A stretch of 64,000 bases of DNA, from the NCBI GenBank assembly GCA_029263455.1, contig JAJCXM010000007.1, positions 62,001 through 126,000 on the forward strand, read 5' to 3'. Numbering within the stretch: position 1 is the stretch's first letter; every line of letters begins with the position of its first letter. Below the pieces are notes generated by a model. That model was not told where the DNA came from. It saw nothing but the letters and a program-made list of their open reading frames with translations, and did not search any database. The translations under genes were made by a program, and so were the position numbers. Below are positions 3,001 to 19,639 of this stretch, piece by piece. The stretch comes from Holophagae bacterium. GTDB lineage: Bacteria; Acidobacteriota; Holophagae; Acanthopleuribacterales; Acanthopleuribacteraceae.

Positions 3001-5444
3001 CGGTCGTAGATGCGAACTTCGTCGATCAAGCCGTCAAAGGGGCGTGAACCCGCACCGTTAGGCTGGTTACCAAACGCCACACTTAGTCCACTACCTTCAT
3101 CAATCTCACCGGTAAGGGTTGTTGAACCAACTTCACTACCATTCTGATAGATGCGCAGGGTATTGCCGTCGTAGACCCAAGCAGCATGGGTCCATTCGCC
3201 TGTGGAGAGTACGCCACTAGAACCGACGACGGTAGTGGTCGTTCCGTTAACTCGCAAGCGCGCTCGCAAACGGGTCTCGCCGTTGGAAGAAACGGTTGAC
3301 AGCATCCAGTCATGGTCATTTGCGTTTGTGCCGGAGGCGCGGCTGATCAGCCTTGCGTCTGCGACCCCGAAATCATCGGCATTGAACCATGCGGATAACG
3401 TCATCTGCTCGCCGGTCACTCCGGGTCCTGGTAACGAGACACGGTTATTCACGCCATCGAACTCAAGGGCTGACCCAAATAATCCGGGTGCCCAACTTGC
3501 TCCTTCTAAGGTGCCGTTGTTGGGGCCAGTCGAATCCGTGGCCACGGTGCCCGAGCCATCGTCCAATGCCCAATGTGCAAGTGGCGATCCGTCACTTAAC
3601 TCGACGCCTTGAGTTGTGGTGTCGGTATTACCGACATCGTCGGTAACGGTGAGCGTAATGGCATAGCTGCCAGGACTGTTGTAATCATGGCTGACGGAAA
3701 CGCCTTGTGCGGATTGACCATCGCCAAAGTCCCAATCGTAGCTACTAATGACACCATCACAGTCACTGGACTCGGTGGCGTCGAGGTTAACGGTGACCGG
3801 CACGACCAGACTTGAAGCGTCCAACGTGAATAACGCAACGGGCAGTCCGTTGCAAGGATCGGCAAGCTCTCCGAGTTCGGAAGCTGAGAGTGCACGGTCA
3901 TAAATACGGACGTCATCGATGATGCCGTCAAATGGTCGGCTACCTGCACCTGCCGGTTGATTGCCAATAGCCACTAGCAGCCCAGCGCGCTCATCGATCG
4001 CACCAGATAGGGCCGTAGAACCCACTTCAATGCCATTTAGGAACAGGCGCAGTTGCGTACCGTCATAGGTACTTGCAGTGTGGGTCCATGTATCTGACTG
4101 TAGGGCTCCGGACGCCGCGACCAGCGTGGTGGTGGACCCATTCACTCGTAGTCGAACTCTAAGGCGGCTTTCACCACCGGACGAAACGCTGGAGATCATC
4201 CAGTCATGGTCATTGGCGTTGGAGCCAGAGGCGCGACTGATCATGCGGGCATCGGCGGTACCAAAATCGTCCGCTTTGAACCAGAGTGACAAGGTGAGTG
4301 CATCACCAGACAGACCTGGACCTGACATGGTTATGCGGTCATTGCTGCCATCGAATTCCAGCGCAGCGCCGAACAGTCCGGCGGTCCATGATGCTCCGTC
4401 AATAGCTCCGTGATGGGAACCTTGCGAATCGCTAGCGGTAGCGCCAGCCCCTTCGTCGAGTGGCCAATGGGAGATCGGTGAGCCGTCGGCTGTCTCAATG
4501 GTCTGAAGTGAGGTGGCTGTGTTCCCGTTGTTATCGGTCACGGTAAGTGTCAGAGTGTACGAGCCTGGGTTGGTATAGGTGTGGCTTGTGGTCATGCCTG
4601 AACCGGTTTCGCCGTCACCGAAATCCCAGTCGTAGGCCGTGATGGTGCCGTCGCAGTCGGAGGATATGGAGGCATCCAGACTGATCACGACGGGCACCAC
4701 CAGGTCGGAAGGGTCGATGGTGAAGGCGGCAACAGGCTCGCCGTTACAGGGATCTGCCAATTCTGCCAATTCGGCGACGTTCAAGTGACGGTCGTAAATG
4801 CGTACGTCGTCCAGCTCACCGTCGAAGGGTCGGGAACCTGCGCCATCGGGCTGGTTGCCCAATGCCACGCTCAAACCACTGCGCTCATCGAGATCGCCGG
4901 ATTTGGAGGTCGAGCCCACTTCGATGCCGTCTTGATAGAGGCGCATTTGTGAGCCGTCATAGACTAATGCAGCGTGTGTCCAAGTATCAGTGGAGAGAGA
5001 TCCTCCGTCACCGACAAGCGTTGTGGTTGACCCGTTGGTTCGAAGTCTGGCACGGAGCCGGTACTGACCACCCGAGGACACGGTTGAAATCATCCAGTCG
5101 TGATCGCCCGCAGACGTGCCCTGAGCTCGACTAATCAGACGCGCATCACCCACGTCGAAATCATCGGCCTTGAACCAGCAAGCGAAGGTTGCCTCGCTCC
5201 CGGACAAGCCTGGTCCGGGCATGGCCACGCGGTCGTCGTTGCCGTCGAAGTCAAGGGCACCGCCGGAAACGCCGGTCGTCCAAGTAGCACCATCAATGGC
5301 ACCGTCATAGGTACCGACTATGTCGCTGGCAACTGTTCCGGTACCCTCGTCTAGTGTCCAGTGGGAAATGGGTCCCTGTGACCAACCCAAAATAGCAATC
5401 TGCGTTAATGAAAGGAGCGCGAGCGATTTGGTGAGTTTGATCAT
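1..5444 (-). CDS. Secreted LamG/PKD tandem-repeat protein (3' end outside window)
   Basis: The frame is open from an ATG at 5444 to the left edge, giving about 1,814 visible residues and no stop. An AAGGAG ribosome site lies 5 bases upstream of the ATG. A short hydrophobic signal sequence is followed by LamG/concanavalin-like jellyroll domains alternating with PKD domains. Six PKD cores of the W-D-F-G-D-G type sit near residues 275, 574, 873, 1170, 1491 (variant W-L-F-G-D-G) and 1813. The first four LamG copies share one sequence type; the two later ones (around bases 1700-1100 and 700-140) are a different LamG type. LamG and PKD domains usually bind glycans or proteins outside the cell, so a surface or secreted adhesive role is inferred. 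Only 14 bases separate it from the giant gene upstream, so co-transcription is likely. Any C-terminal anchoring or sorting domain lies outside the window. Confidence 0.9.
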   Translation of the reverse strand, partial: MIKLTKSLALLSLTQIAILGWSQGPISHWTLDEGTGTVASDIVGTYDGAIDGATWTTGVSGGALDFDGNDDRVAMPGPGLSGSEATFACWFKADDFDVGDARLISRAQGTSAGDHDWMISTVSSGGQYRLRARLRTNGSTTTLVGDGGSLSTDTWTHAALVYDGSQMRLYQDGIEVGSTSKSGDLDERSGLSVALGNQPDGAGSRPFDGELDDVRIYDRHLNVAELAELADPCNGEPVAAFTIDPSDLVVPVVISLDASISSDCDGTITAYDWDFGDGETGSGMTTSHTYTNPGSYTLTLTVTDNNGNTATSLQTIETADGSPISHWPLDEGAGATASDSQGSHHGAIDGASWTAGLFGAALEFDGSNDRITMSGPGLSGDALTLSLWFKADDFGTADARMISRASGSNANDHDWMISSVSSGGESRLRVRLRVNGSTTTLVAASGALQSDTWTHTASTYDGTQLRLFLNGIEVGSTALSGAIDERAGLLVAIGNQPAGAGSRPFDGIIDDVRIYDRALSASELGELADPCNGLPVALFTLDASSLVVPVTVNLDATESSDCDGVISSYDWDFGDGQSAQGVSVSHDYNSPGSYAITLTVTDDVGNTDTTTQGVELSDGSPLAHWALDDGSGTVATDSTGPNNGTLEGASWAPGLFGSALEFDGVNNRVSLPGPGVTGEQMTLSAWFNADDFGVADARLISRASGTNANDHDWMLSTVSSNGETRLRARLRVNGTTTTVVGSSGVLSTGEWTHAAWVYDGNTLRIYQNGSEVGSTTLTGEIDEGSGLSVAFGNQPNGAGSRPFDGLIDEVRIYDRALGITEIADLANPCNGLPSAAFSMNLSSEIVPVTVDLDASDSSDCDGTISLFDWDFGDGVTAQGLNSSHTYSVAGTFDIVLTITDNQGNTATTSQSIAVSDGSPISHWPFDDGSGNTASDVLGTFDGFVDGASWTNGLFGGALEFDGSNDRVSMSGPGVSGDAMTISLWFNADDFDTNDARLISRALGSSSNDHDWMISTVSSGSAIRLRARLRTQGNTTTVVGDSDFLLPNRWIHAAMVYDGSNIRIYQDGTEVGVAAKSGDIDERNGLGVAIGNQPTGAGSRPFDGTIDDIRIYDRALDMSEIIELANPCNGLPIAQFEMNPSGPTAPVTVDFDASSSSDCDGTIAIYDWDFGDSQIGQGTSVSHVFTEPGTYTITLTVTDDGGNQASYQENLTVYEEGARVFAGLLVEYHLDASSGNQVTDVSGVAPSLDLTIEDTAKISWLECGGLSFDAATIAQSTGSTEKLFNGINTSNALTIEAWLQTADINQTGPARVVTLSDGTSNRNVTLGQEGAEFVVRLRTTTNGINGTNVVTQTSSSAAVGELTHVVYTRTAEGVATISINGDTAIQNTVDGDLSNWDPTFVFALANEIGGARPWLGEIYLIAAYDRALLPSEIQQNYLAGLPGQGSNPDCNRPPIARAQSDVMFGEAPLLVEFDSIGSRDLDGTIASYEWLFGDGSSDSGSSVTHNYIEPGIYEVQLTVTDDGAATDTRSLLIVVVEPGQVHRVNEGVLSLYAFREGQGDDVFDLVGGSSPQDLRVQDLSHTVWLSCGGLSIIDDTILGPISGSKFNNAVQASQAITIEAWIQPENTTQGPSSPARVVTLSDTPNQRNFTLGQKASEWDVRFRTTQTGINGNNPSTTTTGSLATTELAHVVFTWDSSGVTKLYVDSALSGTESIGSNISNWDPTYAFALANEVNPQERSFIGDYHMVAVFDRALTASEIEQNYLAGVYGISVADPLITIDATPNPAQFNQTVSFTAQVQTGCDATIASYAWDFGD
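3..5390 (-). repeat. In-gene tandem LamG-PKD repeat units
   Basis: The PKD core motif recurs on the minus strand at about 4613, 3720, 2823, 1931, 967 and 3. This gives periods of about 893, 897, 892, 964 and 964 bases. Each period codes for one LamG plus one PKD domain. Copies are visibly diverged at the base level (for example the segments around 2405, 3300, 4195 and 5085), so this is an old duplication series and not a recent perfect repeat. The step from about 895 to 964 bases coincides with a change of LamG type. Confidence 0.85.
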
Positions 5445-5458
5445 GATTGACTCCTTGT

Positions 5459-8400
5459 TCATGGCAGTTGCCAGTTCTGGGCTGCATCGCGCCATTCTTG
5501 TGGAAGCTCCAGCCAGAATGGATCGGTCAGATTGGGGAATGCGGTTTTCCAGTCTTGGAATTCCTGGTTAAACTGGGTCGCGCTAGTATTGATGGGGCCA
5601 ACCATCGCCGGGAAGACCAAGTCCCATTCGTTCTGCATTTCGAAAGGAAGTGTGAACACCATGTGCATATTGAAGGTCCCTTCGAAGTTGTTTCCCTCGA
5701 CCGGGTTGGTAAGCGTCGGCTCGACAGCGGCACCACTAAGCCCCGTCAGCATGCCAAGGTGAAAATCGGTGGTGGCCATGGACTGAGTCGGATCATAGGT
5801 GGTGCCGAATTGGCCGCTGAAAGAGAGCGGGATTGAGAGTTCCGTGCCGCCCAAACGCCCACTAAAATCGATCAGATGGGTGCGGAAGGCTAATTTGTCG
5901 TCGGTTGAACTGCTGTGTGTGTCGACGAACCCTATCCATCCGAGCGGATTGAGGAAGAACCGATTGGGTATGAAGTAGTAGGGACTGCCAAAACAGAAGC
6001 GCGGGAAATTCTCTTCGTAGCCGCCGCCATAGTCCACTCGATCGGTGATGAATCCGGGACCGAGTCCTATGCTGTGCTCCGAATCCCAAACATAGGGTTC
6101 ATAGGCTTGAAATGGCAGATCGATTCCATTGTCCACATGGTCCTGAGTGATTTGCACCTCATAGACGCGAGCAATGGCTTGGCTCGTGCCAAGATCTTTT
6201 CCGGATTTGTAGGCATTGCCGATGTCGGCTTCATAGGTCACAAAGATCCACGCGCGATTCCCGACCGGGACATCGAACAAGTAGAACGAGTCGATGTCGC
6301 GTCGCTTGGCAGTCTGCGACTTGTAGTAGGGATCATAATCCGAAGCCCCGGTAGCCTCGGAGATGTAGGTTAGATCCCAATCATATGTCCAGAGCTGGTA
6401 ACCAAAATAGGTATCAGTCAGCTGCATGATCCAATTGGTGTCCAGTCGGACCTCAATATCTGCCGTTTGCAATTCATTTCCCGGTAACCAATCCAAGATT
6501 TCCTGCTCGCCGACACTTCCTGCGGTCCCATAGCGAGTTGGGAAACGGCTGGCATAGGCGGCCCAGAGCCGGCCCGGACTTAGATAGAACGGAATTTCGT
6601 TGTCGATAATCTCGGTGTCATCCCAGAGTTGGTAGGTATCGACGTGCGCCTGGCCGTCGTGTTCTTTTTCGCCACCTATATCGGAGACCATATTAGCAAT
6701 CCAGGACAAGGCTTCGGAATTGCCAACGTTAAGGTCAACGGTGGTTGCTGTGACCTGTTGGGGTGCGATTAGTTTGAAATGTGGGCCTAGATTGGCTGTG
6801 CCTGTGTCAACTAATGCAGAAGTGGTTAGAGTCCCGGGCTCAACCCAGATATCGTCGTAACGGATGGAGTAGTCGAAATCGTAGTTGTAGGGGTAACCAT
6901 TGACCAGGATGAAGTGGTGATGGTTTTCGTAGTCAGGTGTCACGCCGACTGTCTCTGAAAATGACTCTGAGTAGTACTTAAAGTCGGGCAGAGGATTACC
7001 CAGGTCATCCAGCACAAGTAGATCTGCCACGGGGAAGGGTAGGGTTACCGGGAAGGAGCCGTCGACCGCTTGGGCCAAACCCTGGGCAATAACGGCTTCG
7101 GACGTGGGAGCGGCTAGCCGGTAACGCAGGGCGACCGATCCGTCGGTCGGACAGCGCAAATTGTAGTAGAGCGACCCGCCACTGGCGGCGATGTAGGTGT
7201 AGTAGGAGGGTACCGCAGCGGGGTATTCCGCACCCGTGACTTGGTCTACGTAAAGTAGTTCCTGGAGATAGGTAGCCACGTCGTTACGGTAGGGAATGTA
7301 CGACGTGCCATCAGCGGCGTAGGTTCTTAGTGCGGTCGATGGCCATGTCGCTGGGCCCACCGTGTTGCTGGCGTTACAGTCGAGGAATAGTGTCTGGCTG
7401 AAGATTGGGTTGGAGAAGCCGGGTAAGTAGGCTTCCACCAAGGTGTGCAGACCGGCGATGGGTGCCAACAGGATGTAGCGGTCGTAGCTGGAACTATCAG
7501 TATGAACCGAGTAGATGTAGGTCGCTTGGCCGTCTATGAACCACTCCAGTTCTTTTCCACGCAGGTCATAGCGAGCGTGGATGTAGACAATGTCGTTCAT
7601 GCAGATGTTTAAGTACGAACGCAGGTATTCCCGTTGACCAACGGAAAGATCGCCGACCAAGTACCAGTTGGTCCCGTCCATGCTGAACTGAATCTCCCAT
7701 ACATCGCCCACGCGAATACCGCTAAACGCAACATCGCCGTTTTGGTCGGTGATCTCGGTCAGTTCGCGACCGTCGGTGTGGTTGAGGCGGATATAGCGAC
7801 CTGCCGTATTGGGCTCTCCGGTAATCAGTTTGTAAATCAAGGTAGTGGGTGCTGTGTGAAAGCCGCCATTGATGACAATGCTGCCTGATTGGCTGTCACC
7901 GTCGATTCCGTTGCGGGTCGAGACACGGTCGATGTCGAAGGTCGACAGCGCTTCGTCGTAGGTGAGCGCTACGCGCCCGCCACCGCCGCCGTTAGTACCC
8001 GAGTCTGTGACCCAATCGGCGTAGTTACCGTCGCCTCCGTGGGCTGATATGTGGCCCGTCCCAAGAATGCGTTCGGCGTGGATGTTGACGCTGCCGCCGG
8101 ATCCGGACGCATCGCTACTCCGTCCGTGCTGGCCATTTGCTTCAATGGCGCCATTAAGTGTCAGTGATCCAGTGATGTCGAGTATAACGACGCCACCGCC
8201 TGTACCGCCGCCCTGAGACGAAATGGTGTCTCCTCCTGACCCGAGATCTCGCGGGTCATAAGGATCGCCATAGGTCGGGCCGGCAAAGGTACCACCCGAT
8301 CCCCGACCACCGTAACCGGCGGCATAGCCGTTAGTGCTGCGACCGGGTCCAGTGCCTTTGACGTAGCCGCGTTCCGAGGCGTCAAACCGTGAACTATGAT

Positions 8401-11400
8401 CGATGAGAACGTCACCGCTGATTGTCAGGTCAATACCCGGTATTTCTTGAGTTCGGTGCGTAACCACGGCGCCATTGATAACTGTCATGCTGGCAAAGTC
8501 ATGAGGTCCGATACAAGTCAGTTCCGTGCCGGAAACATAAATGTCCATGCCCTCCACGTCCTGCCCAGTGGTCCCGACGGCCCATATCGTGTCGTTGGGT
8601 TGAGCCAGGTAGGCATTAGCCCCTAAGTCTCGGATCAGGTAGGTGGCGCTGGCGATTTTACCCGGCGACTTATTGGGAATATACAGACGTGCCCGCAACA
8701 GGGTATCGGCTGTGATAGAAAGTGTTCCGCCCGGGACAACGAAAGGATCGGTCTCGTCGGGCTCGCTTCCGTCAAGTGTGTAGTGGATGGCGCCGAGCGA
8801 AACGAGGGCATTTAGAGTGATCGTTTGTGCAGTCGGGTAAATTCCGCCCGCTGGATCGAAATGAGGTTCGGGTACCGCGACGTCCAGGGCATAGCGTTCG
8901 GCCAGATAATACTCGACCTGCTCAATTTCATCGCTGCTTAGGGTGCGATCATAAACGATGACTTCAGCTATTTCTCCAGTGAAATTGCTTGAACCATCGC
9001 CGCCAATATTTAGTTGGGCCGTGTCCGGGTCAGGGGTGAGCGACAGCCCGTCTAGTCCGGGCTCTCCATTGACCCGCGTGTACGTGTTGCCATTAGCCTG
9101 TTGACCGAAGGCCACAATCGACCAACGATCGAGCAAGGGCGCCTCGTGAATCAATTCGTAGTTAAGCTCCAGGTGTCCGGTTGCGTAGACCGACAAGCGT
9201 TGACGCACGTATCTGGTCTCGTCCGCAACGGACCATAAGCTCAAGCGGCTGGAGTACCCGATGCGTGTGGGGTACGCCACGGTAAAAATAGTGGCGTCCA
9301 GGCTAAGGGTTGGCGCTATATCATGGATCTGGAAGAAGTGGCTACCGTCGAAATGCCAAGCGTCCTTACCGTTGATCAGGTTGGGCGAGGTTTCCGGGAA
9401 GCTGGGGACATAGAATTGGTTGTTCCAGATTTCGCCCGGCCGAGCTGGATGTTGCCGGTAGGACTGGTCCTGCCAGCCGACCGTTTCGCCTTCAACTGTA
9501 ATGGCACCTTGGTCCGCATCTGCCCAGAAGGCCATACCGCGGGTAGGCAATTCAGGATGCGCGGCCACAAAGCCTGCGTAGCGCTGAGCTTCGTCACGTG
9601 AAAGTTGGAGTCGGTGGGTCTCGTCTTGGGCCTCTTGTGGCAGACTTGCGATCCAAGCGGCGGTGGGTGTGTAAGTGCCATAGGTGTCGGAGAGATAGGC
9701 GTGGACCGTATCCAATTCAGCGGGCGTCAGCGCGCGGTTGAAAATCATCACTTCTACTAATTCGCCGAAGAAGGTGGAATTTCCAGTCGCTGAAGCGCCG
9801 ATCCGGTTGAGATCGCGTGGAACACCTGTTGGGACGTGTACCGTGCCTACGCCTTCTTGCACGTTGTCTGTCAGCATCTTGACCGCGGTCCCCTGTTGGT
9901 GGACGGTGTAAGCGGAAGTGCGGTAATAGTCAATCACTTCGGGTTCGTTGATTGTTTGGGCTGAAGGTGCCTCAACTTTGTAGTAAAGGTTACGACTGCC
10001 GCCGAGTTTAAGCAGTTCGACTTGATAGGATCCATTCTGTTGACCCAACTCCAGCCAGGTAGCGGATTGACTTTGGGTTTTCTGGCCAATGTTGGCCACA
10101 AAAATTGCGGTCAAACCGAAGTTGAAGTTATCGAAGCCAGCTGGCATATCAAAGAAATCATTTTCGCCATCAAATACAACGGTCTGATGGGTCCCGTAGT
10201 CGCTGGTTCGAGTGATGGGCCGATTTTCTTTTTGGTTTTGAATGCCGTCATTGTTTTGGCCGGACAGATCAACCCATTGCGCTATAGCGCCTTCGTCGAC
10301 ATAAAGCGTACCTGGGTCCGCCTTGAACCAGACGAGGTTATTGGCGATCGATTGAGCGGAGAATTCGCTTGTTGTCAGTGTCACGGTCTGAGCCTCGCCA
10401 GCCGAAAGCGTGACATTTTGCGAGATGCTGCCCTGTACTGCAGCCGTCACGAAGCGGTAAGTGGTGGGGAACATGCTGAGGTTTAAATCGCCGTTGGTAT
10501 CGGTGGTGCCGAGACTTACGCCATCAGCAACGACTATGGCGTTGGCGATAGCGGTGCCGCTGGTATCCTGAACATGGACGGCTGCTGTTGCGGTTTGAGA
10601 GGCAGGAGGGCCGTTGAGGGTTAGCGCAGCGGTTTGATTTCGCGCGATATCGACCGGTACGGAAAACCATACGTCGCCCCACCGGGAGGTCACTTCGATC
10701 TCGTAGTGGCCTTCTTGCACTGGTAAGGATTGGGTTCCAGTAAACGGAAAGCTGAGGCTGTAGCGTTCGAATTCGAGGGTTCCTTGTAGTCCTTCAAAGC
10801 CAGACCCTAAGCTCAGGTCGAGTTGTCCTTCGTAGTAGGGTTCTAAAAGCAAGTTGACGTCTAGGCGATCCTGAATGGCGGTAATCGTCTCGTCGTAGAA
10901 CACGTCGCCTCCGGTCGAAGTGGTACCCTGCACGCGTAAGTCAAGCTGCGTGCCCAAAATGTAGGTGTCGTCGGAAGCCCACTCTCCTTGAAGGTCGGTT
11001 GTTCCGACCCATTCGTCATCCAAATAGATTTCCAGTCCAGGTATCGGTTCGAGGTTGGTGAAGCTGTCGAGCGCGCGGACGAGAATGTCGCCGCCACCTG
11101 GGTCTTGAACGGTTTGATCGGTCGGGGCGTGTGTTGAGGTAACTTGGTAGTTACCGTAGTCTACGGTCACTTTGTAGTACTGAGTTGAGTAAGAGTAGAG
11201 CCGTAACGGAAGATCAACCCAAGTTACCTGACCGTTACTGTTGGTGGTCTTAGTACCGTGGTCCCAGATTTTTGGCTCGCTTCCATTGGTGACGACATGA
11301 ACTTCCACACCAGGGTACGGCTGTCCGAAGCGATTGAGCACGGTGTAGGTCATCGAATTCGCTTGCAGAGGCGGGTTGTTGAACTGTATTCCGGTCGGGC

Positions 11401-14400
11401 TATCTAGGAGCCCGAAATGGTGGATGGCCCCGCTTCCTTGAGCGTGGTGGTTGACGACGTGGAACTTCCAGTCTCCATAGGCGAGTCCCGAAAGGGTGTA
11501 GCTCTGTTGGCCGAGAACGTCGTAACTACTCGGTGTGCCGTCAGGCGCAATGGCATGGATGGTCACATCCATTTCCGGGTCATTGCCGTAGCGTAGGTCG
11601 GGAAAGTGAACGATGCCGTCTTCGGGCAGATTTTGGAAAAGGATCTCATCGCTCAGGCCGGCTGGGTTTCCATCAAGGTCGAAGAACAAGATGTCGATGT
11701 TGTTGACACCAAGTTGCCAAGGATAGACCAGCACAACCACTTCTACGGATGCGCCATCCGAGCTTGGAAGCAGGGTATATGGGACGTCACGGTAGTTGAT
11801 ACGTACATGGTGAGACTCGGGTCCATTGTATACGTAGACCGTGCGATCGGGATCCAAGACGAAACCCGGATCACTCACAGTGAATTCGAGGTGCTGCGGC
11901 AATGAATCAAAAGGACCGCTGTCACTGATAACAATCTGTGTGGCGGATGGCCATTCCACAAAGTGAGAGGTCGTCGTGCGGGCGCTGGAAAGACCCGTTA
12001 CCTCGACTCTAATCTCGTTGGTGCCTACTTTCCATGGGTTGATGAAATCCGCTACATGGAATGTCCAGTTGTCCAAGGATTGGTTATAGGTGAAGTTCAT
12101 CCAGCTTCTGCCCGGGAATCCAGCGCGAAGTTGGGCAGCGGGTTTGTCGGTCGTCGCGACGAGATCGGCTTCTCCCGTCCCGGTTAGCGTCATGGTCAGG
12201 TTTGCTGATGGCGGCACGACATCCAAGACAATATCTTGCAGCTCTTGGTAGCCGGGTTGCAACATGAGATCGCTAACCATGCGAGCTCCAGAACCGTTGT
12301 AGTACTGAGCGACGGTTAGACTAGTCGTGTCCCAGGTTGGGAGGTAGTCCCAGGTGAGGAAGGGATTGGCCGTACGGTATTTGGGCGATGTCCAGCCCAA
12401 AGCGGAGACACGCACATAAGAGTTGAGGAACGCACCCTCGGTGTTGTGAGCCGATAGACGCACAGACGCGGTCTCTTGCGGGATCTTTTCGCGCAGTTCA
12501 AAGACCTGATCGGGAGTGGACACGGTGATTGGGTCACTCCAGTGAAAGACAGGTGAGTTTTCTGGGTTGAATTGAAGGCGCCAAGTACCAGGGGGAAGGC
12601 TCATCACGCCAAGCCCCCCCGTGTAGTAGCGCGTTTCGTAGTAGTTGTTTCCAGATGCGGGATACCGCCGGACCGTGAACTTGGGAATAGGGACGTCCCA
12701 GAAATCGGCGAAGAATACATTGGCACGCACCCAAAATGGTAGAGCTTGCGCGCCGAGCGCTTCGTAGCGGTTCACGGTGCCGAACAGAATGTCGATGCTC
12801 GGGTTCCATTGATTCTTTGGGATCGTAGACGTCGAGAGACGCCACTGTCCTTCGGGAAGAAGCGGAAAATAGGCTTGCTGCTGGCCTTGCATGTTCTCGC
12901 CGACTGCAGCCGTGAAGGTTTTCAAGGTGGTTGCGACTTCGATGACCTGACCCTCAATCAAGGGCGTGCCGCCGTCGAACTCACCAATGAACACCAAGGG
13001 CGAACTACCTGGCACTTCGATGGTCTCGGAAACACGGTTGCCGGGCACCACGCTGATCTGACCATTGACTAGGACTCCGGATACGGGATCGACGTAGCGA
13101 TAGCTATAGGAACCCTGAATGACAAAACGAAATCCCACCTGATCATTGCCGTCCAGAACGCGCACAAAGTTAACGCCCTGACCCTGGAGCTCGATCAGGC
13201 CAAAGCGGTGCGGGAACCCACGTTGTGTGAAGTGGAAGTCCAGATCGCCGACGTTCGAGTTGACGGGAACGGTGACTCGGGTGACTTGGTCCTCGCCGAT
13301 GATGACATTAGCCGCGCCGTAGTATTGCTGGTCTAGGGTCACAATGTGGACTTCGATATTCTCACCTTTAGTAATGTTTTTGATCCGAGCCAGTCCCGAT
13401 CCGTCGGTGTACGCGCGAGAACGGCCACTGACGATCGCGCCTTCGATGGGCGCCATCGTGGCCTGATCTACGACCGTGACCTCCAGAATACGCGGGAGTT
13501 CCACCGTGAATAGGTAGTCTGCTTCAGGGTCGTCGAGCTGAATGTCGTATTCGCGCACGACGTAGCTATGGCTTTGGCTTGCGTCGATGGTTATACGCAA
13601 ATGCACGCGTCCTTCCAGGAAATCGAATTGGATAGGAGTCCCATCGGGGTAAATAACGGAACCTTGACGATGGGCTAATCCGCCCAGAGCGGTCCATTCC
13701 CATTGCACAAGAATGCGTTCTTCAATGTTTTCATTGGTGTCCCATTGGAATCCAATCAGAGGTCGGAACTCGGGGATATCTAGGTAGGCTTGGGCCTCTG
13801 TAGTGGCATCGCTGACGATCTCGGTGTGGACCATAGTGACCAGCGTGTTGTCGGGTGTCTCCACCAGGAACGTAATGGGACCGGCCGGTAGAAATGGGGT
13901 CAGAAAATCGGCGTTTGCGCCGTCCAGATGACCACCGAAGAGTTGGTTTACACCGCGGAAAACTGTGAGTTTGGCGCCAACTGCCAAGTCGCCTGTTGAC
14001 AGGTAGCCCGTCAAATGGAGCTTGCCCACGGGCTGCATCACCACCCTAAGATCCTCGGTTTCCGGTACTGAGAAACTCACGGTGCTATGGCGATTGGTGA
14101 AGGGGTCGTAGACGGAAAGGGAGTAGTTACCGCGAGTAAGCGAGGGAAAACTAAAAAGACCGTCGATGTCGCTGGTGCCTAGTAACACCTGTTTGCTCAC
14201 ACCGGTGGCTCTGCTCCCCGAGTAGGCTAAAGTCCCTGACTGACGAGCCAAGGTGAGTTGGGCATCTGGGACTGGAGTTCCGGTGTCGTTCACGATACTG
14301 CCGATGAAGTCCTGTCCCGGTTGGATGGTGAGCTGGATACGTTCGTTGTTTTCACCGACGGTGCCATACCATCCATCGGCAACACCGGTCGAGATTTGCA

Positions 14401-17400
14401 TGGCCAAAACTGACCAGCGTCCCAGGGGCAGGTCCGGCAGTGTCATGACGCCGCTTTGCGAATCGGGTTCGTAGCGCTGTTCCTGCCAAAGCTTGTTGTC
14501 CTTGAAAATCTGGAGGAAGATGCCGTCGTTAAGGGGTTCCCCGGTGCCGTCTTGGACCGCGATCTGCAATTCACTCAACGGGCGGATGACGATGTCGATG
14601 GGACGTCCATCATCGGCCAATTCGACAACCGTGCGTTCGCAGAAACCGTTATAAGGTGCAGAAGGCCCTTCGTAGATGATGCAAAAAGGAATGGTCGTTC
14701 GCACTTGGAAACTAGGTTCAAAGTTCTCTTCGGACAGGGTCACAAGTTCCTCAAGCGTAACTTCCTGCATTGAGTTGTCGATGACTTGGGCTTGGGTAAA
14801 GTGCACCGAACCGACGCTCACACGCCGTCCCAAGGTGTCCCAGATACGTACGGGGACGTGGATATTGCCATTTAAGCTGATCGGAAGAAACGGGACCGCC
14901 AATCGCTGGTCCCAGAGCCATTTTCCCTGTCCAAAACGGCCAGTATCGTTGTCAAACACTTGGGCGCTGAATGTGTAGCTCACTGCGCCATCAGGAATCT
15001 CGATGTTGTGAAGGTCGATGGCCCCGGCTTCGGTGGTGAAGAAATCACCTAAGAAGATGTCGCCTTGAGGCATTTCGGGACCATGGGCCTCAACGGATAG
15101 GCGGTACTTAATTTGGGACTCCACATGTTCGTTCATGGCGTCGAACACTTGACCAGCGATGCTGATAAATTTCGGAACGATGACGCGTTTCTTACGCAAT
15201 AGCAGATCGCCCTCGAATGTTTGACCTGATGTGACCACGACGGTGGCCTCGGTTTTGACGTAGTTGGCCCGCAGTCCCTGCGAGGGCAACATGACAACAT
15301 CAGCGGTACCCGGATTGAGTCCGGTCAAGACGACTTCGCCTTGCGCATCGGTGACATTGGCGTAGGTGGATCCAGCACTGTCTTTAAGCTCAACCCAGAC
15401 ATTCTCAAGACGTTCGAGCGTGTCCTCGGAATAAATGGTTAGATGAGCGGAGCCGCTCTCGGGAAACGTGACGGTGGTTTGACCCTGAAACACGTCGAGC
15501 GGACGGGTGTAGATCTTCCCCGTGGTACGAAAGTTAATCGGATGTTGGGTCTCGATGAACATGGCGTACTCGAATTCCGGCACGAAGCCGACCCATTCAA
15601 ATGTGATATGCCCGTCAGCGCCGCTGAGCGCCGCTTGAGCGGGAAACCGCGGAAGTTCGGGTCGTTGGTAGTCGCTGACTTGGACCCATGCATTTGGCAA
15701 GGGAGAACCGTTCTCGTCAATCACCTGAACGTCCAGCGTAAATGGCGAATCGAGTATGAAGCTGATTTGGGTTTCGAGCTGATTGGGCGAGGCCAAGGTG
15801 AATCCTTGCGTGTGAATGACGCCGTACTTGCGAACGGTTGCCGTTCCAAAGCCCACCATCACGCCCTCAAAGACGACAATTCCAGTCTCGTCGGACTCTT
15901 GGATGGTTCGCGAAAGACCATCGCGAACCTCGACCGCTATCCCTGCAACCGGGGTGCCCATGCTGTCCTCGACGTGGACGGTCAAAGTGCCAGTCTCAGA
16001 TGGCGTGTACAAGAACGTTCCCAAATCGACCGTCTCGCCTGCGTGGGCCTCCACGGTTCGCCAATCTACCTGTGAGAAACTAAACCAATCGCGTATGTAC
16101 AAGATGTCCATGGTCCCTTCGGGAACTTCAAACGTGATGTTCCCGTTATCAAATCCCTTCAAACCGACCCCGGCAAAAATGTTGGGAACGGTGCTCGGCG
16201 GAATGCCACCGAAAACGGTGCCGTAATGACGAATGAGAATAGCGCCATCGGTAAGTGGAACCGTGTCCCCGTTCTCGTCAAGCGTGCGCATTTGGGCTGT
16301 TAGAGTGGCGGGCACTGTAGCTGGGTCAAGGGTGATCACCGTTCCCAGGTTATTGGGCCTTAGAGTGAAGGATTGGGCGTCGAAGCCCCCGACGCCTTGG
16401 GCCAAGATGCTAATCGGACCCAAACGCATATTCGTGAACTGGATAGACTCGCCGGGAAGCAGCGCGTGACTGACTCGAAACTCGTCTTGGTCAAGCGCTT
16501 GAACGTAGACAATGTCTTCGGGCAGCGCTTCTTCACCGCTGGCGAGCGAGGGGATCTGTACTTGGAAATGACCACGCGGAGTAAACACAAAGTCATAACG
16601 AACGGCCTGTCCTGCATAGCGTCCGTAAATGAGTCGATCAACTTGACGCCCGTTCCAACGTACGCTCCAAAGTAGATCGGGCGTTCTTGTCGAACAGGGA
16701 TAAGGAGGGTTGGCAGGGCATTGGCCGCAGCATGGATAGCGAGGGTCATCGTGATTGCGGTAGAACGGCCAATAATCCACGTGATAAGAGCCGTCGAGTC
16801 CGGTTAGCACGCCAAACTCTTGGATGTAGCTTTGGCCGTGTTGGCGGGTTTGTGCCTGTTGCTCGGCCAGTAACTCAAGGGATTGTTTGATCTGCATTGC
16901 CAAATCTTGGTTGCCGCTAGCCGCCAGCTCGTCGTAACCGTCGAACTCAATGGCAGGTGCGTTATTGAGCCGCGTCGCGGTCTGAATCAAGCGCACTTCC
17001 GCGGCCGGAACAGGCTCACCGCTGGGGCCGAGCACGATCCCGTCTAGGGTGGTGCCGTGCAGGTACTCAGACATTTGGATAGCCCGAGTAGCGGGCTCAA
17101 GTGGCGTACCGCCGACGGACTGAACGCCGTCGTCCATGTGGATGTCGCGTTCGATCAAGCCCATGGGGTTACGTGCCCAGACTTGAATAACGTGATCGGT
17201 TAGGCGATCGGCTCGCAGGACTTGGTTGTTGTCTATCTTGAAGCGGCTGGCAAAGGCCTCATCCAACAGGACCGGTGCACTGAAATAGAGCAGCACCTGG
17301 CGTCCGTAAAGGTCGGGGTCGATGGTCAGGAGTTCTAGGCCAACTTGGCGGGCAGCTAGTAACGTCGGCGATTGGGGCTCGCCCCAGACCCACTGTGGAT

Positions 17401-19624
17401 AGACACGCGTACCATCTTCGATGAACTCGAGGTTGAATCCGTTCCAGATAACGGTCACTTCGCCACCTTGGGTTGTGAAGGTGAATCGACCCCAACGTCG
17501 ACCATCGAAGAACCAGCCGGCAGTACTGGTGGTTGTCGGTTGCCACGTGATGTGTTCGAAATCGTCGCGGAAGAAGGTGCCTGTCACATCGGAGCCACTG
17601 CCAAAGGGTCCAAAGGAGAGTGCCCCTCTGGCTCCGCTCAGTGGATCGTTCTCAACCAAGAAAGCCAGGCAGGGGGCCATGACATCGGCCGTCATCAGGT
17701 CTTCGATGCCATTGACTTCGTTAGCCAGGTTTTGAGCCCATTCCGCGTACTTACTGTCTTGTTGGAGAAAATCCAACAAGGATTTCGGTTGAGCTAGGGT
17801 TGCAAAGAAGAAGTCCAGAACCAGGTCGCGTTTCTGCTCCTCAATCGTCCCTGAACGGGGTTTCAAGTAGGCGAATGTGAGTGCCTGGATCCAGTCCTTA
17901 ATGGCATCTTCGGGGATGTAGCGCAGGCCGTTTTCTTCGGTGCCGGGCGGGATCTGAGCCAAGCTAAGTGCCCGACCAGCTACGGTTTTTAGGTCTGCTT
18001 CTACGCTGTTTGGGAAGAAAAAGGGAGCTTCAGAAAGGCGACTCAACGCACGTGGCATGATCAGCGTCATGGCGGAAAGCGGAAGGCCGTGTTCGCCCAC
18101 CGCAACATGAATGGAATAGGTTAGTGGGCCGCCTAGATCTTCTCCACCACTGAGCTGCGTCACGGCAACTTTGCCGGTGCTCAGGCTAATTAGGTTCATG
18201 CGGAATATAGCTTCATCACCTTCGTTTTCCAGGTCCACAACTGAGACCGGGGTGCCGTTGACGAGTGGCGTGATGTCGTTGAGCTGAGCTCCCTGAATAG
18301 CATTCGAGTCGATCTCAAAACGCAAGTCGTACACTGGAACGCCATTACGGTTGGTGAAAATGGCGTCGATATCGAATTCCTCGCCTTCGCGGACGACCGA
18401 AGGGATATCGAAGTGCAGGCTCATCTCAGGGCGACGAATGTACAGATACCCGCGTGCATCGCCAGTGATGGGATACGAGGCGCCGTCATCGGCCAGAATC
18501 GTGCCGCGAAAATGAAAATCGAGTGTTTGTTCGCCTGGTTTAAGCGCTTCTATGACCCAAGAGGCGAAACCTCGCTGTTGTGGACCAATTTCATTGGTAT
18601 CGTCAGCGTTTCCAGCAACGCCGTCCGGGCCCGGACCGGTAACATAGATATCGGAGTACTGTGGGCTGCCACCGAGATCCGGCAGGCTTAGGGAATCGCT
18701 ATTAAATGACATCTCCGCGCTGAGGTTGCGGACGGTGTAGCTAGTGTCCTCAGGAGCCACGTTGAGCAATATCAAAGTGGGCTTGAAAAAGCTATTGAGG
18801 TAGCCGATGTTGGCTGGCAAGACGATCAGCGCATCTAGTTGAGGTAGGGTCCGTCGTGGACGAGGAATAGACTGGGTGGTTGCCTGAAAGACATCGGGTG
18901 ACGATTTAACTTTGACCCGCGGTGGGCGTTCCCAGACCAGGTGGACTGGATAGAATTTCAGCGAATGGTTCTGTGTCTTAATGGCTTCGTATTCACCACT
19001 GATCTCGTTCTTGATTAAGACAATTTCAGTGTCAATGGTTTCGCCGGGCTGGATCTCTAACTCAAGGTCAACTTGAATTCCAACGTATGAGTCGTCGTTG
19101 ATGGAGACGCCTAGCTCTTCCATTTCCTGTCGCGAAAGTCGATTGATCTCGACCTCGGGGATCAGGATCTCGCCAAGCACTTCCACAGTCAGGTTTTGGC
19201 TAAACACGCGTATCACCTGGCCACTTTGGTTAAGGATGCGCCAGCCACTTACTGATCCCACACCTTCTCCGCCGCCCGCCTGGAAAACAACAGATCCAGA
19301 CCAGGTTAAAGGAATTGTCTTTAAGGTCGGAGCAGCTCCGCCAGGAGGTTGATATTCCATGGCGAGTTGCCAGCCCTGAGGTATGGCTTGCGGGTTATCG
19401 CTGAAGTCGTTTTGATTGAATCGAAACCCAACTTTAAAAGGGATGTCCTTGATGGCGACGACATAAGCGGGTTCTGCGGTTAACTCGAGACCAATTAAGT
19501 CCCATGTTTCGTCAGCTTGCACGAATCCCGAGCCAACGACCCACGTCATCAGAATGGCAATAGGTTTGAATAGCAAACCTGATAGCGCAAAACGCTTCTC
19601 GGCAGACACCAATCCTGAAGCCAT
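5459..19624 (-). CDS. Giant secreted multidomain surface protein, about 4,721 residues
   Basis: One open frame of more than 14 kb. I choose the ATG at 19624 because GGAGG lies 6 bases before it; ATGs at 19630 and 19639 are worse placed. A signal peptide ends near a V-Q-A-D site at about residue 38. The bulk is beta-rich. Carboxypeptidase-regulatory/CNA-B-like folds are visible near residues 860, 1215, 1295, 1395, 1775, 2045, 2850 and 3015. Two LamG-like domains lie at about 3095-3330 and 3365-3580, and a chitobiase/hexosaminidase C-terminal-type module at about 3590-3665. A Gly-rich, beta-helix-like stretch covers about 3755-3900. A helical segment near 540-650 and a Cys cluster near 955-970 stand out. 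No catalytic domain was recognised. An extracellular structural or adhesive role is inferred. It lies downstream of the sigma factor and just ahead of the LamG/PKD gene. Confidence 0.9.
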   Translation of the reverse strand: MASGLVSAEKRFALSGLLFKPIAILMTWVVGSGFVQADETWDLIGLELTAEPAYVVAIKDIPFKVGFRFNQNDFSDNPQAIPQGWQLAMEYQPPGGAAPTLKTIPLTWSGSVVFQAGGGEGVGSVSGWRILNQSGQVIRVFSQNLTVEVLGEILIPEVEINRLSRQEMEELGVSINDDSYVGIQVDLELEIQPGETIDTEIVLIKNEISGEYEAIKTQNHSLKFYPVHLVWERPPRVKVKSSPDVFQATTQSIPRPRRTLPQLDALIVLPANIGYLNSFFKPTLILLNVAPEDTSYTVRNLSAEMSFNSDSLSLPDLGGSPQYSDIYVTGPGPDGVAGNADDTNEIGPQQRGFASWVIEALKPGEQTLDFHFRGTILADDGASYPITGDARGYLYIRRPEMSLHFDIPSVVREGEEFDIDAIFTNRNGVPVYDLRFEIDSNAIQGAQLNDITPLVNGTPVSVVDLENEGDEAIFRMNLISLSTGKVAVTQLSGGEDLGGPLTYSIHVAVGEHGLPLSAMTLIMPRALSRLSEAPFFFPNSVEADLKTVAGRALSLAQIPPGTEENGLRYIPEDAIKDWIQALTFAYLKPRSGTIEEQKRDLVLDFFFATLAQPKSLLDFLQQDSKYAEWAQNLANEVNGIEDLMTADVMAPCLAFLVENDPLSGARGALSFGPFGSGSDVTGTFFRDDFEHITWQPTTTSTAGWFFDGRRWGRFTFTTQGGEVTVIWNGFNLEFIEDGTRVYPQWVWGEPQSPTLLAARQVGLELLTIDPDLYGRQVLLYFSAPVLLDEAFASRFKIDNNQVLRADRLTDHVIQVWARNPMGLIERDIHMDDGVQSVGGTPLEPATRAIQMSEYLHGTTLDGIVLGPSGEPVPAAEVRLIQTATRLNNAPAIEFDGYDELAASGNQDLAMQIKQSLELLAEQQAQTRQHGQSYIQEFGVLTGLDGSYHVDYWPFYRNHDDPRYPCCGQCPANPPYPCSTRTPDLLWSVRWNGRQVDRLIYGRYAGQAVRYDFVFTPRGHFQVQIPSLASGEEALPEDIVYVQALDQDEFRVSHALLPGESIQFTNMRLGPISILAQGVGGFDAQSFTLRPNNLGTVITLDPATVPATLTAQMRTLDENGDTVPLTDGAILIRHYGTVFGGIPPSTVPNIFAGVGLKGFDNGNITFEVPEGTMDILYIRDWFSFSQVDWRTVEAHAGETVDLGTFLYTPSETGTLTVHVEDSMGTPVAGIAVEVRDGLSRTIQESDETGIVVFEGVMVGFGTATVRKYGVIHTQGFTLASPNQLETQISFILDSPFTLDVQVIDENGSPLPNAWVQVSDYQRPELPRFPAQAALSGADGHITFEWVGFVPEFEYAMFIETQHPINFRTTGKIYTRPLDVFQGQTTVTFPESGSAHLTIYSEDTLERLENVWVELKDSAGSTYANVTDAQGEVVLTGLNPGTADVVMLPSQGLRANYVKTEATVVVTSGQTFEGDLLLRKKRVIVPKFISIAGQVFDAMNEHVESQIKYRLSVEAHGPEMPQGDIFLGDFFTTEAGAIDLHNIEIPDGAVSYTFSAQVFDNDTGRFGQGKWLWDQRLAVPFLPISLNGNIHVPVRIWDTLGRRVSVGSVHFTQAQVIDNSMQEVTLEELVTLSEENFEPSFQVRTTIPFCIIYEGPSAPYNGFCERTVVELADDGRPIDIVIRPLSELQIAVQDGTGEPLNDGIFLQIFKDNKLWQEQRYEPDSQSGVMTLPDLPLGRWSVLAMQISTGVADGWYGTVGENNERIQLTIQPGQDFIGSIVNDTGTPVPDAQLTLARQSGTLAYSGSRATGVSKQVLLGTSDIDGLFSFPSLTRGNYSLSVYDPFTNRHSTVSFSVPETEDLRVVMQPVGKLHLTGYLSTGDLAVGAKLTVFRGVNQLFGGHLDGANADFLTPFLPAGPITFLVETPDNTLVTMVHTEIVSDATTEAQAYLDIPEFRPLIGFQWDTNENIEERILVQWEWTALGGLAHRQGSVIYPDGTPIQFDFLEGRVHLRITIDASQSHSYVVREYDIQLDDPEADYLFTVELPRILEVTVVDQATMAPIEGAIVSGRSRAYTDGSGLARIKNITKGENIEVHIVTLDQQYYGAANVIIGEDQVTRVTVPVNSNVGDLDFHFTQRGFPHRFGLIELQGQGVNFVRVLDGNDQVGFRFVIQGSYSYRYVDPVSGVLVNGQISVVPGNRVSETIEVPGSSPLVFIGEFDGGTPLIEGQVIEVATTLKTFTAAVGENMQGQQQAYFPLLPEGQWRLSTSTIPKNQWNPSIDILFGTVNRYEALGAQALPFWVRANVFFADFWDVPIPKFTVRRYPASGNNYYETRYYTGGLGVMSLPPGTWRLQFNPENSPVFHWSDPITVSTPDQVFELREKIPQETASVRLSAHNTEGAFLNSYVRVSALGWTSPKYRTANPFLTWDYLPTWDTTSLTVAQYYNGSGARMVSDLMLQPGYQELQDIVLDVVPPSANLTMTLTGTGEADLVATTDKPAAQLRAGFPGRSWMNFTYNQSLDNWTFHVADFINPWKVGTNEIRVEVTGLSSARTTTSHFVEWPSATQIVISDSGPFDSLPQHLEFTVSDPGFVLDPDRTVYVYNGPESHHVRINYRDVPYTLLPSSDGASVEVVVLVYPWQLGVNNIDILFFDLDGNPAGLSDEILFQNLPEDGIVHFPDLRYGNDPEMDVTIHAIAPDGTPSSYDVLGQQSYTLSGLAYGDWKFHVVNHHAQGSGAIHHFGLLDSPTGIQFNNPPLQANSMTYTVLNRFGQPYPGVEVHVVTNGSEPKIWDHGTKTTNSNGQVTWVDLPLRLYSYSTQYYKVTVDYGNYQVTSTHAPTDQTVQDPGGGDILVRALDSFTNLEPIPGLEIYLDDEWVGTTDLQGEWASDDTYILGTQLDLRVQGTTSTGGDVFYDETITAIQDRLDVNLLLEPYYEGQLDLSLGSGFEGLQGTLEFERYSLSFPFTGTQSLPVQEGHYEIEVTSRWGDVWFSVPVDIARNQTAALTLNGPPASQTATAAVHVQDTSGTAIANAIVVADGVSLGTTDTNGDLNLSMFPTTYRFVTAAVQGSISQNVTLSAGEAQTVTLTTSEFSAQSIANNLVWFKADPGTLYVDEGAIAQWVDLSGQNNDGIQNQKENRPITRTSDYGTHQTVVFDGENDFFDMPAGFDNFNFGLTAIFVANIGQKTQSQSATWLELGQQNGSYQVELLKLGGSRNLYYKVEAPSAQTINEPEVIDYYRTSAYTVHQQGTAVKMLTDNVQEGVGTVHVPTGVPRDLNRIGASATGNSTFFGELVEVMIFNRALTPAELDTVHAYLSDTYGTYTPTAAWIASLPQEAQDETHRLQLSRDEAQRYAGFVAAHPELPTRGMAFWADADQGAITVEGETVGWQDQSYRQHPARPGEIWNNQFYVPSFPETSPNLINGKDAWHFDGSHFFQIHDIAPTLSLDATIFTVAYPTRIGYSSRLSLWSVADETRYVRQRLSVYATGHLELNYELIHEAPLLDRWSIVAFGQQANGNTYTRVNGEPGLDGLSLTPDPDTAQLNIGGDGSSNFTGEIAEVIVYDRTLSSDEIEQVEYYLAERYALDVAVPEPHFDPAGGIYPTAQTITLNALVSLGAIHYTLDGSEPDETDPFVVPGGTLSITADTLLRARLYIPNKSPGKIASATYLIRDLGANAYLAQPNDTIWAVGTTGQDVEGMDIYVSGTELTCIGPHDFASMTVINGAVVTHRTQEIPGIDLTISGDVLIDHSSRFDASERGYVKGTGPGRSTNGYAAGYGGRGSGGTFAGPTYGDPYDPRDLGSGGDTISSQGGGTGGGVVILDITGSLTLNGAIEANGQHGRSSDASGSGGSVNIHAERILGTGHISAHGGDGNYADWVTDSGTNGGGGGRVALTYDEALSTFDIDRVSTRNGIDGDSQSGSIVINGGFHTAPTTLIYKLITGEPNTAGRYIRLNHTDGRELTEITDQNGDVAFSGIRVGDVWEIQFSMDGTNWYLVGDLSVGQREYLRSYLNICMNDIVYIHARYDLRGKELEWFIDGQATYIYSVHTDSSSYDRYILLAPIAGLHTLVEAYLPGFSNPIFSQTLFLDCNASNTVGPATWPSTALRTYAADGTSYIPYRNDVATYLQELLYVDQVTGAEYPAAVPSYYTYIAASGGSLYYNLRCPTDGSVALRYRLAAPTSEAVIAQGLAQAVDGSFPVTLPFPVADLLVLDDLGNPLPDFKYYSESFSETVGVTPDYENHHHFILVNGYPYNYDFDYSIRYDDIWVEPGTLTTSALVDTGTANLGPHFKLIAPQQVTATTVDLNVGNSEALSWIANMVSDIGGEKEHDGQAHVDTYQLWDDTEIIDNEIPFYLSPGRLWAAYASRFPTRYGTAGSVGEQEILDWLPGNELQTADIEVRLDTNWIMQLTDTYFGYQLWTYDWDLTYISEATGASDYDPYYKSQTAKRRDIDSFYLFDVPVGNRAWIFVTYEADIGNAYKSGKDLGTSQAIARVYEVQITQDHVDNGIDLPFQAYEPYVWDSEHSIGLGPGFITDRVDYGGGYEENFPRFCFGSPYYFIPNRFFLNPLGWIGFVDTHSSSTDDKLAFRTHLIDFSGRLGGTELSIPLSFSGQFGTTYDPTQSMATTDFHLGMLTGLSGAAVEPTLTNPVEGNNFEGTFNMHMVFTLPFEMQNEWDLVFPAMVGPINTSATQFNQEFQDWKTAFPNLTDPFWLELPQEWRDAAQNWQLP

Positions 19625-19639
19625 GATCATCCTCCGCAC

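Follow-up and report, generated by a model that had tools for sequence, protein, structure and literature searches.

A 64,000-nucleotide stretch of the genome of a Holophagae bacterium (contig JAJCXM010000007.1, positions 62,001 to 126,000; G000:C7:62001-126000, hereafter the window) encodes a giant protein, P1, and the start of a second giant, P2, which lies downstream of it. Our analysis indicates that P1 is the first giant of a polymorphic toxin operon, P1-P2-Imm11, since P2 combines an Rhs shell with a HINT domain and a tip resembling AHH and is followed by an Imm11 gene. P1 is probably the constant, non-enzymatic partner of this toxin, produced together with it as an extracellular stalk or adhesin that displays or aims the polymorphic Rhs protein P2. 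P2 and the Imm11 gene are located directly downstream, and this context, rather than the size of P1, is the key to its nature. A first-pass annotation of this DNA had missed the toxin operon.

The best start of P2 is an ATG 14 bases behind the stop codon of P1, preceded by AAGGAG, which gives a protein of 8,283 residues; the open reading frame (ORF) of P2 overlaps the end of P1, and an ATGA overlap provides an alternative start. Beyond the window, P2 continues with Big_9/cadherin-like and Big-like modules, an Rhs/YD shell (RHS_repeat PF05593, E 7e-31; DUF6531; TEN_YD-shell), a processing domain before the tip (Hint; PT-HINT with 32.4 bits at a cut-off of 27.7) and a tip resembling AHH (PF14412, E 0.0017), whose 18.7 bits are below the cut-off of 22.3. 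The product of the next gene matched Imm11, which Zhang et al. (2012, PMC3482391) list alongside Tox-AHH, Tox-HNH and Tox-SHH. The positions of these and the other features are given in Table 1.

The order of a constant giant, then a toxin giant and then a small gene recurs across Acidobacteriota. When any ORF on the same strand that was not itself P1-like, had at least 900 residues and lay within 2.5 kb was counted as a partner, an adjacent second giant was present in 36 of the 49 P1-like loci with a complete 3' end. Pfam and NCBIfam models detected RHS_repeat in 10 of 14 and 13 of 16 partners examined and in P2 (at least 24), although in three loci (G154, G389_C145 and G418_C25) the Rhs ORF was not the first one behind P1. 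Since the genomes contain just 0 to 50 Rhs cores each, the adjacency of P1 and Rhs genes appears to be far beyond chance. In about 15 pairs, the partner frame has an ATG or GTG in a 4-bp overlap with the TGA of P1. In a quick tree of 58 N-terminal domains of P1-like proteins, with an arbitrary root, Rhs pairing was distributed across many clades and the partnerless genes clustered, a pattern consistent with a pairing that is old and was lost in places. The genome of the window itself encodes a second P1-like giant of 6,536 residues (G000:C22:477067-512248), whose partner (>5,189 residues, cut by the contig end) begins 3 bases on.

In close relatives, sequence comparison showed that the toxin tip is swapped against a constant body while the first giant stays constant. 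The identity between such partners exceeds 90% and breaks off only in the last ca. 200 residues, whereas the first giants remain ca. 90% identical. The P1 proteins of G120 and G155 were 90% identical, and their partners had 80-100% identity per 200-residue block up to ca. residue 5,200, followed by 31 and 25% at the tip; the orthologue of P2 itself is cut by a contig end. Similarly, the two P1 proteins of Sulfidibacter corallicola were 94% identical and their partners just 42%. Among the partners, the tips included EndoU, Tox-REase-7, a DUF900 hydrolase, VanY, Ntox47, a Tle1-like domain, an XOO_2897 deaminase, Tox-GHH and WHH. A small ORF was found within about 30 bases behind most partners, and one of these small ORFs encodes SUKH-4. 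By eye, several of these small ORFs begin like lipoproteins or secreted proteins, for example that behind the VanY-tipped partner of G009. In S. corallicola, the Rhs partner behind one of two near-identical P1 genes (NZ_CP071793.1, 124915-138012) is split into two ORFs of 1,899 and 2,445 residues and may be broken; the other copy, at 7126313-7139779, is intact.

Several observations weigh against P1 being the partner of an Rhs toxin in the manner proposed. Thirteen of the 49 complete loci had no non-P1 giant behind P1, and these included two tandem P1 pairs, indicating that P1 can exist without a toxin. The Holophagaceae partners examined had no detectable Rhs repeats. The C-termini of P1 proteins vary between clades and have no sorting signal in common, and the kinase and sigma factor genes upstream of P1 were, in the set of loci fetched, confined to this one and to the orthologue in G001, a genome of the same genus. 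Moreover, secretion, physical contact between P1 and P2, adhesion and the target are all points that we infer. The partnerless and tandem loci, together with the LamG and CHB_HEX_C modules, would suit a P1 that acts on its own as a surface adhesin or binder of glycans, regulated along with the Rhs toxin yet functioning apart from it. We consider this unlikely, since the adjacency has been held or regained over much of the N-domain tree, often with a start-stop overlap, and the clustering of the partnerless loci fits loss.

Both tandem pairs belong to Acanthopleuribacteraceae and consist of giants of about 7,650 residues each with no Rhs gene directly behind them (Holophagae metagenome-assembled genome (MAG) 8_bin.70, G005:C15:48625-95288; Acanthopleuribacter pedis, G006:C59:360201-406802). 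At the Holophagaceae loci (L104:9244-9720 and L102:6990-7988), where the partner lacks detectable Rhs repeats, the small genes behind the partners have signal-peptide-like starts, as expected of periplasmic immunity proteins; the G009 partner ends in a VanY-like D,D-peptidase.

P1 is a single intact gene, as the first-pass annotation had stated: its frame on the minus strand runs from an ATG at 19624 to a TGA ending at 5459 with no internal stops or frameshift. The longest ORF of this frame (5459-19639) has a GTG start and 4726 residues; the ATG at 19624 was preferred because it is located six bases behind GGAGG, and it gives a protein of 4,721 residues. This ribosome site and the signal-like N-terminus agree with the earlier description. 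In G001 (Acidobacteria MAG HKST-UBA04), an orthologue of equal length had 80, 77, 73 and 74% identity over four parts. Over 4,721 aligned codons, the proportion of nonsynonymous differences (pN) was 0.148 and that of synonymous differences (pS) was 0.81, which is saturated; only 20 and 5 positions were gapped. The equal length of the orthologue, a pN well below the saturated pS and the few gaps indicate from the sequence comparison that P1 is under purifying selection and that its size is kept by selection, as had been presumed from the lack of frameshifts; no ratio of nonsynonymous to synonymous substitution rates is given since the synonymous rate is saturated. That P1 arose as an artefact of assembly or frameshifting, or is a giant gene in decay, has a practically negligible probability: nothing in favour of it was found, and it is refuted by the same length and gene order in the second genome, a pN much below pS throughout, and homologues in 16 of 100 relatives.

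Table 1 Features of the P1-P2 locus. Positions are those of the window, except where a contig (C7 of G000) is named.
Feature	Position	Strand	Basis
Giant protein P1, 4,721 residues, first giant of the pair	5459..19624	-	ORF, ribosome site, orthologue, purifying selection
Signal-peptide-like N-terminus of P1, cleavage after VQA, ...LLFKPIAILMTWVVGSGFVQA/DETW	19514..19624	-	By eye from translation
Conserved N-terminal domain of P1, family absent from Pfam; predicted Ig/macroglobulin-like domains and helical tail	17723..19519	-	Alignment, profile, AlphaFold
CarboxypepD_reg/Big_1-like module of P1	15791..15988	-	Segment-wise Pfam scan
CarboxypepD_reg/SpaA-like module of P1	15215..15421	-	Segment-wise Pfam scan
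CarboxypepD_reg module of P1, best of the set	14033..14302	-	Pfam, whole protein and segments
CarboxypepD_reg/Big_1-like module of P1	11141..11344	-	Pfam, whole protein and segments
CarboxypepD_reg-like module of P1	10373..10576	-	Segment-wise Pfam scan
LamG (Laminin_G_3) module 1 of P1	9713..10111	-	Pfam
LamG (Laminin_G_3) module 2 of P1	8924..9142	-	Pfam
CHB_HEX_C-like module of P1	8690..8854	-	Pfam
C-terminal region of P1, ca. 735 residues, ends LPxxWRxxAxNW	5471..7711	-	Sequence comparison
Start of P2 (six LamG and PKD modules inside the window)	1..5444, on to G000:C7:42593	-	ORF and Pfam
Imm11 gene, 330 residues, directly downstream of P2, 4-bp overlap with P2 end	C7:41604-42596		Imm11 E 5.7e-9
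Promoter-like element CTTTTCGCGNNNTTTTCTCGCNTNAATA, 28 bases, between sigma factor and P1	19730..19757	-	Genome searches
ECF sigma factor (TIGR02999), upstream of P1	19793..20392	-	NCBIfam; likewise upstream in G001
Ser/Thr protein kinase with TPR repeats; gene 18 bp ahead of that for the sigma factor	20411..23182	-	Domain scan; likewise in G001

The first 880 residues of P1 matched proteins in the 16 relatives mentioned above, and an alignment of 27 rows and ca. 600 residues defined an N-terminal domain family (the N-domain). In a survey of Acidobacteriota, the N-domain profile matched 43 of 396 sampled genomes and 36 of 210 genera. Most of the matches opened frames of 2,000-6,800 residues, some of which were cut by contig ends; in the family overall, the domain is mostly N-terminal in proteins of 2,000-7,700 residues. 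A search of named genomes with the family subset of the alignment identified carriers including S. corallicola M133 and A. pedis KCTC 12899, both of them isolates with P1-partner pairs. No matches were obtained in a plasmid collection or with PADLOC. The N-domain of P1 itself matched no Pfam family, and the alignment had no sequence match among solved structures; single homologues had weak immunoglobulin (Ig)-type matches such as CARDB in Pfam, and A2M appeared weakly in one of the 27. The AlphaFold model of the N-domain (mean predicted local distance difference test score (pLDDT) 74.7) consists of beta-sandwiches followed by helices, and it matched macroglobulin and transglutaminase Ig-like barrels (Foldseek, VIA-align: Z about 10 over ca. 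190 residues, root mean square deviation 5-11). Thus, the N-domain is predicted from this model to fold as tandem Ig/macroglobulin-like domains. Since the resemblance is to a common fold, it implies no shared function.

At the other end, the C-terminal ca. 735 residues had relatives only in the same-genus orthologue and in two proteins of the genome G004. The statement of the first-pass annotation that the first 850 and last 800 residues match nothing known thus held for Pfam, NCBIfam and, by sequence, the PDB, but the first ca. 600 residues belong to a phylum-wide family and the last ca. 735 have these three relatives. The structure prediction it proposed as a check yielded the N-domain model, whereas the AlphaFold prediction for the C-terminal 737 residues (pLDDT 34.5) was unusable and no fold is claimed for them. 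The last residues of P1 (NLTDPFWLELPQEWRDAAQNW, window 5459-5540) resemble a recurrent end of other Acidobacteriota giants, NLTDPEALAGLxxxExAAIxNF (G142_C1, G290, G332 and G401), and a C-terminal sandwich common to P1 and these giants is possible. P1 as a lone orphan protein is ruled out by the phylum-wide N-domain family and the adjoining toxin genes.

Between these ends, Pfam detected CarboxypepD_reg in four stretches when the whole protein was scanned, and in five at E<0.001 and one weak stretch when segments were scanned. At least eight CNA-B/carboxypeptidase-regulatory modules had been proposed; this number was not confirmed, although it is plausible that P1 has more diverged modules of this type beyond those supported by Pfam. 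The other families detected were Big_1, SpaA, two Laminin_G_3 and one CHB_HEX_C, the last two of which correspond to the LamG and hexosaminidase C-terminal-like modules described before. Neither Pfam nor NCBIfam, the latter with zero matches overall, found an enzyme domain in P1, in agreement with the absence of a recognisable catalytic domain noted at first. SLH, RTX and type IX secretion system sorting domains were absent from P1 at E<=1 in both databases, as were RHS matches. P1 as a known S-layer or gliding adhesin, the finding named at the outset as one that would overturn the initial assessment, is ruled out by the lack of any such hidden Markov model match in Pfam or NCBIfam.

These scans also bear on the idea that P1 is an export or translocation factor, similar to TpsB or TcA, which takes P2 past the outer membrane or delivers it to the interior of a target cell. 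Such a role could explain why a constant gene precedes a polymorphic toxin in an operon in which no other export gene was seen, and it could reside in the C-terminal region that could not be modelled. However, Pfam and NCBIfam found no barrel or POTRA domain in P1 and, at E<=1, no TcA-type domain, and the homology matches of P1 are Ig, transthyretin and lectin modules. An export role appears improbable.

Upstream of P1, the genes for the sigma factor of the extracytoplasmic function (ECF) type and the kinase are present as they are in G001. The promoter-like element had one match in the window genome and one in G001, both before P1; with a single site in each of these genomes, no genome-wide regulon was found. 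In Xanthomonas citri, the kinase-activated ECF sigma factor of the PknS-EcfK pair switches on a contact weapon, the type VI secretion system (PMC13147305). By analogy, the kinase and the sigma factor beside the operon probably switch on P1-P2 in this genus.

Based on these results, P1 as the displaying partner of P2 would work as described below. The short gap or start-stop overlap suggests that P1 and P2 are made from one operon, possibly as one transcript, and both giants carry putative Sec-type signal sequences by which they would be exported. P1, with its Ig/transthyretin-like modules and lectin-like LamG domains, probably forms a long extracellular stalk, and it may anchor, display or aim P2 at a neighbouring cell. 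The Rhs shell of P2 would enclose the C-terminal nuclease-like tip, which may act as a nuclease once the HINT domain frees it, and Imm11 would protect the producer cell. More tentatively, and somewhat short of even confidence, the two giants might constitute a phylum-wide contact weapon in which P2 cannot be displayed or delivered without a P1 stalk of the new family.

The toxin P2 itself is of a known kind, an Rhs polymorphic toxin. Like the Rhs/YD toxins described by Zhang et al. (2012, PMC3482391), it combines an Rhs shell, HINT and a C-terminal tip with an immunity gene behind it, and its relatives likewise swap tips against a constant body. It differs in its 8,283 residues, which exceed the length peak of 1,400-1,600 residues reported there, and in the constant non-Rhs giant that precedes it. 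The closest logic described so far, that of a constant partner directly before a polymorphic toxin, is found in MafA-MafB of Neisseria (PMC3482391). There, the partner is a secreted surface protein: MafA has a lipobox and is confined to that genus, and MafB carries a MafB-N domain. P1, a constant protein with a predicted surface location, differs in its 4,721 residues and unrelated modules. No MafA or MafB-N match surfaced in general Pfam scans of P1 and P2, in which no direct comparison was made. CdiA/CdiB two-partner secretion is similar in having a giant surface toxin with a variable tip and an immunity gene, but P1 and P2 had no Pfam match to haemagglutinin-type repeats or activity domains, and no CdiB-like barrel was found in them in domain scans. 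In TcA/TcB/TcC toxin complexes, an Rhs-type cocoon protein is combined with a separate giant partner gene; this resembles the present layout, although sequence scans detected no Tc-family domain in P1. Alpha-2-macroglobulin and transglutaminase Ig-like domains have a fold similar to that of the N-domain model, whose sequence matched no solved structure.

The apparent novelty lies in the two-giant layout and in the family to which the constant giant partner belongs. No description of such a two-giant weapon was found in open-access papers, an absence which does not prove novelty, and the main text of a paper on Acanthopleuribacteraceae genomes mentions neither Rhs, toxin nor giant. The findings define a protein family missing from Pfam and offer a testable role for giant bacterial genes that otherwise resemble anonymous adhesins. 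They also raise the question of how two putative Sec substrates, 4,700 and 8,300 residues long, arrive at the surface of a cell that has two membranes. The recurrence of a two-giant layout of polymorphic toxins in this large, mostly uncultured phylum suggests that the arrangement is a bacterial weapon of a kind that is widespread in Acidobacteriota and has so far gone undescribed.
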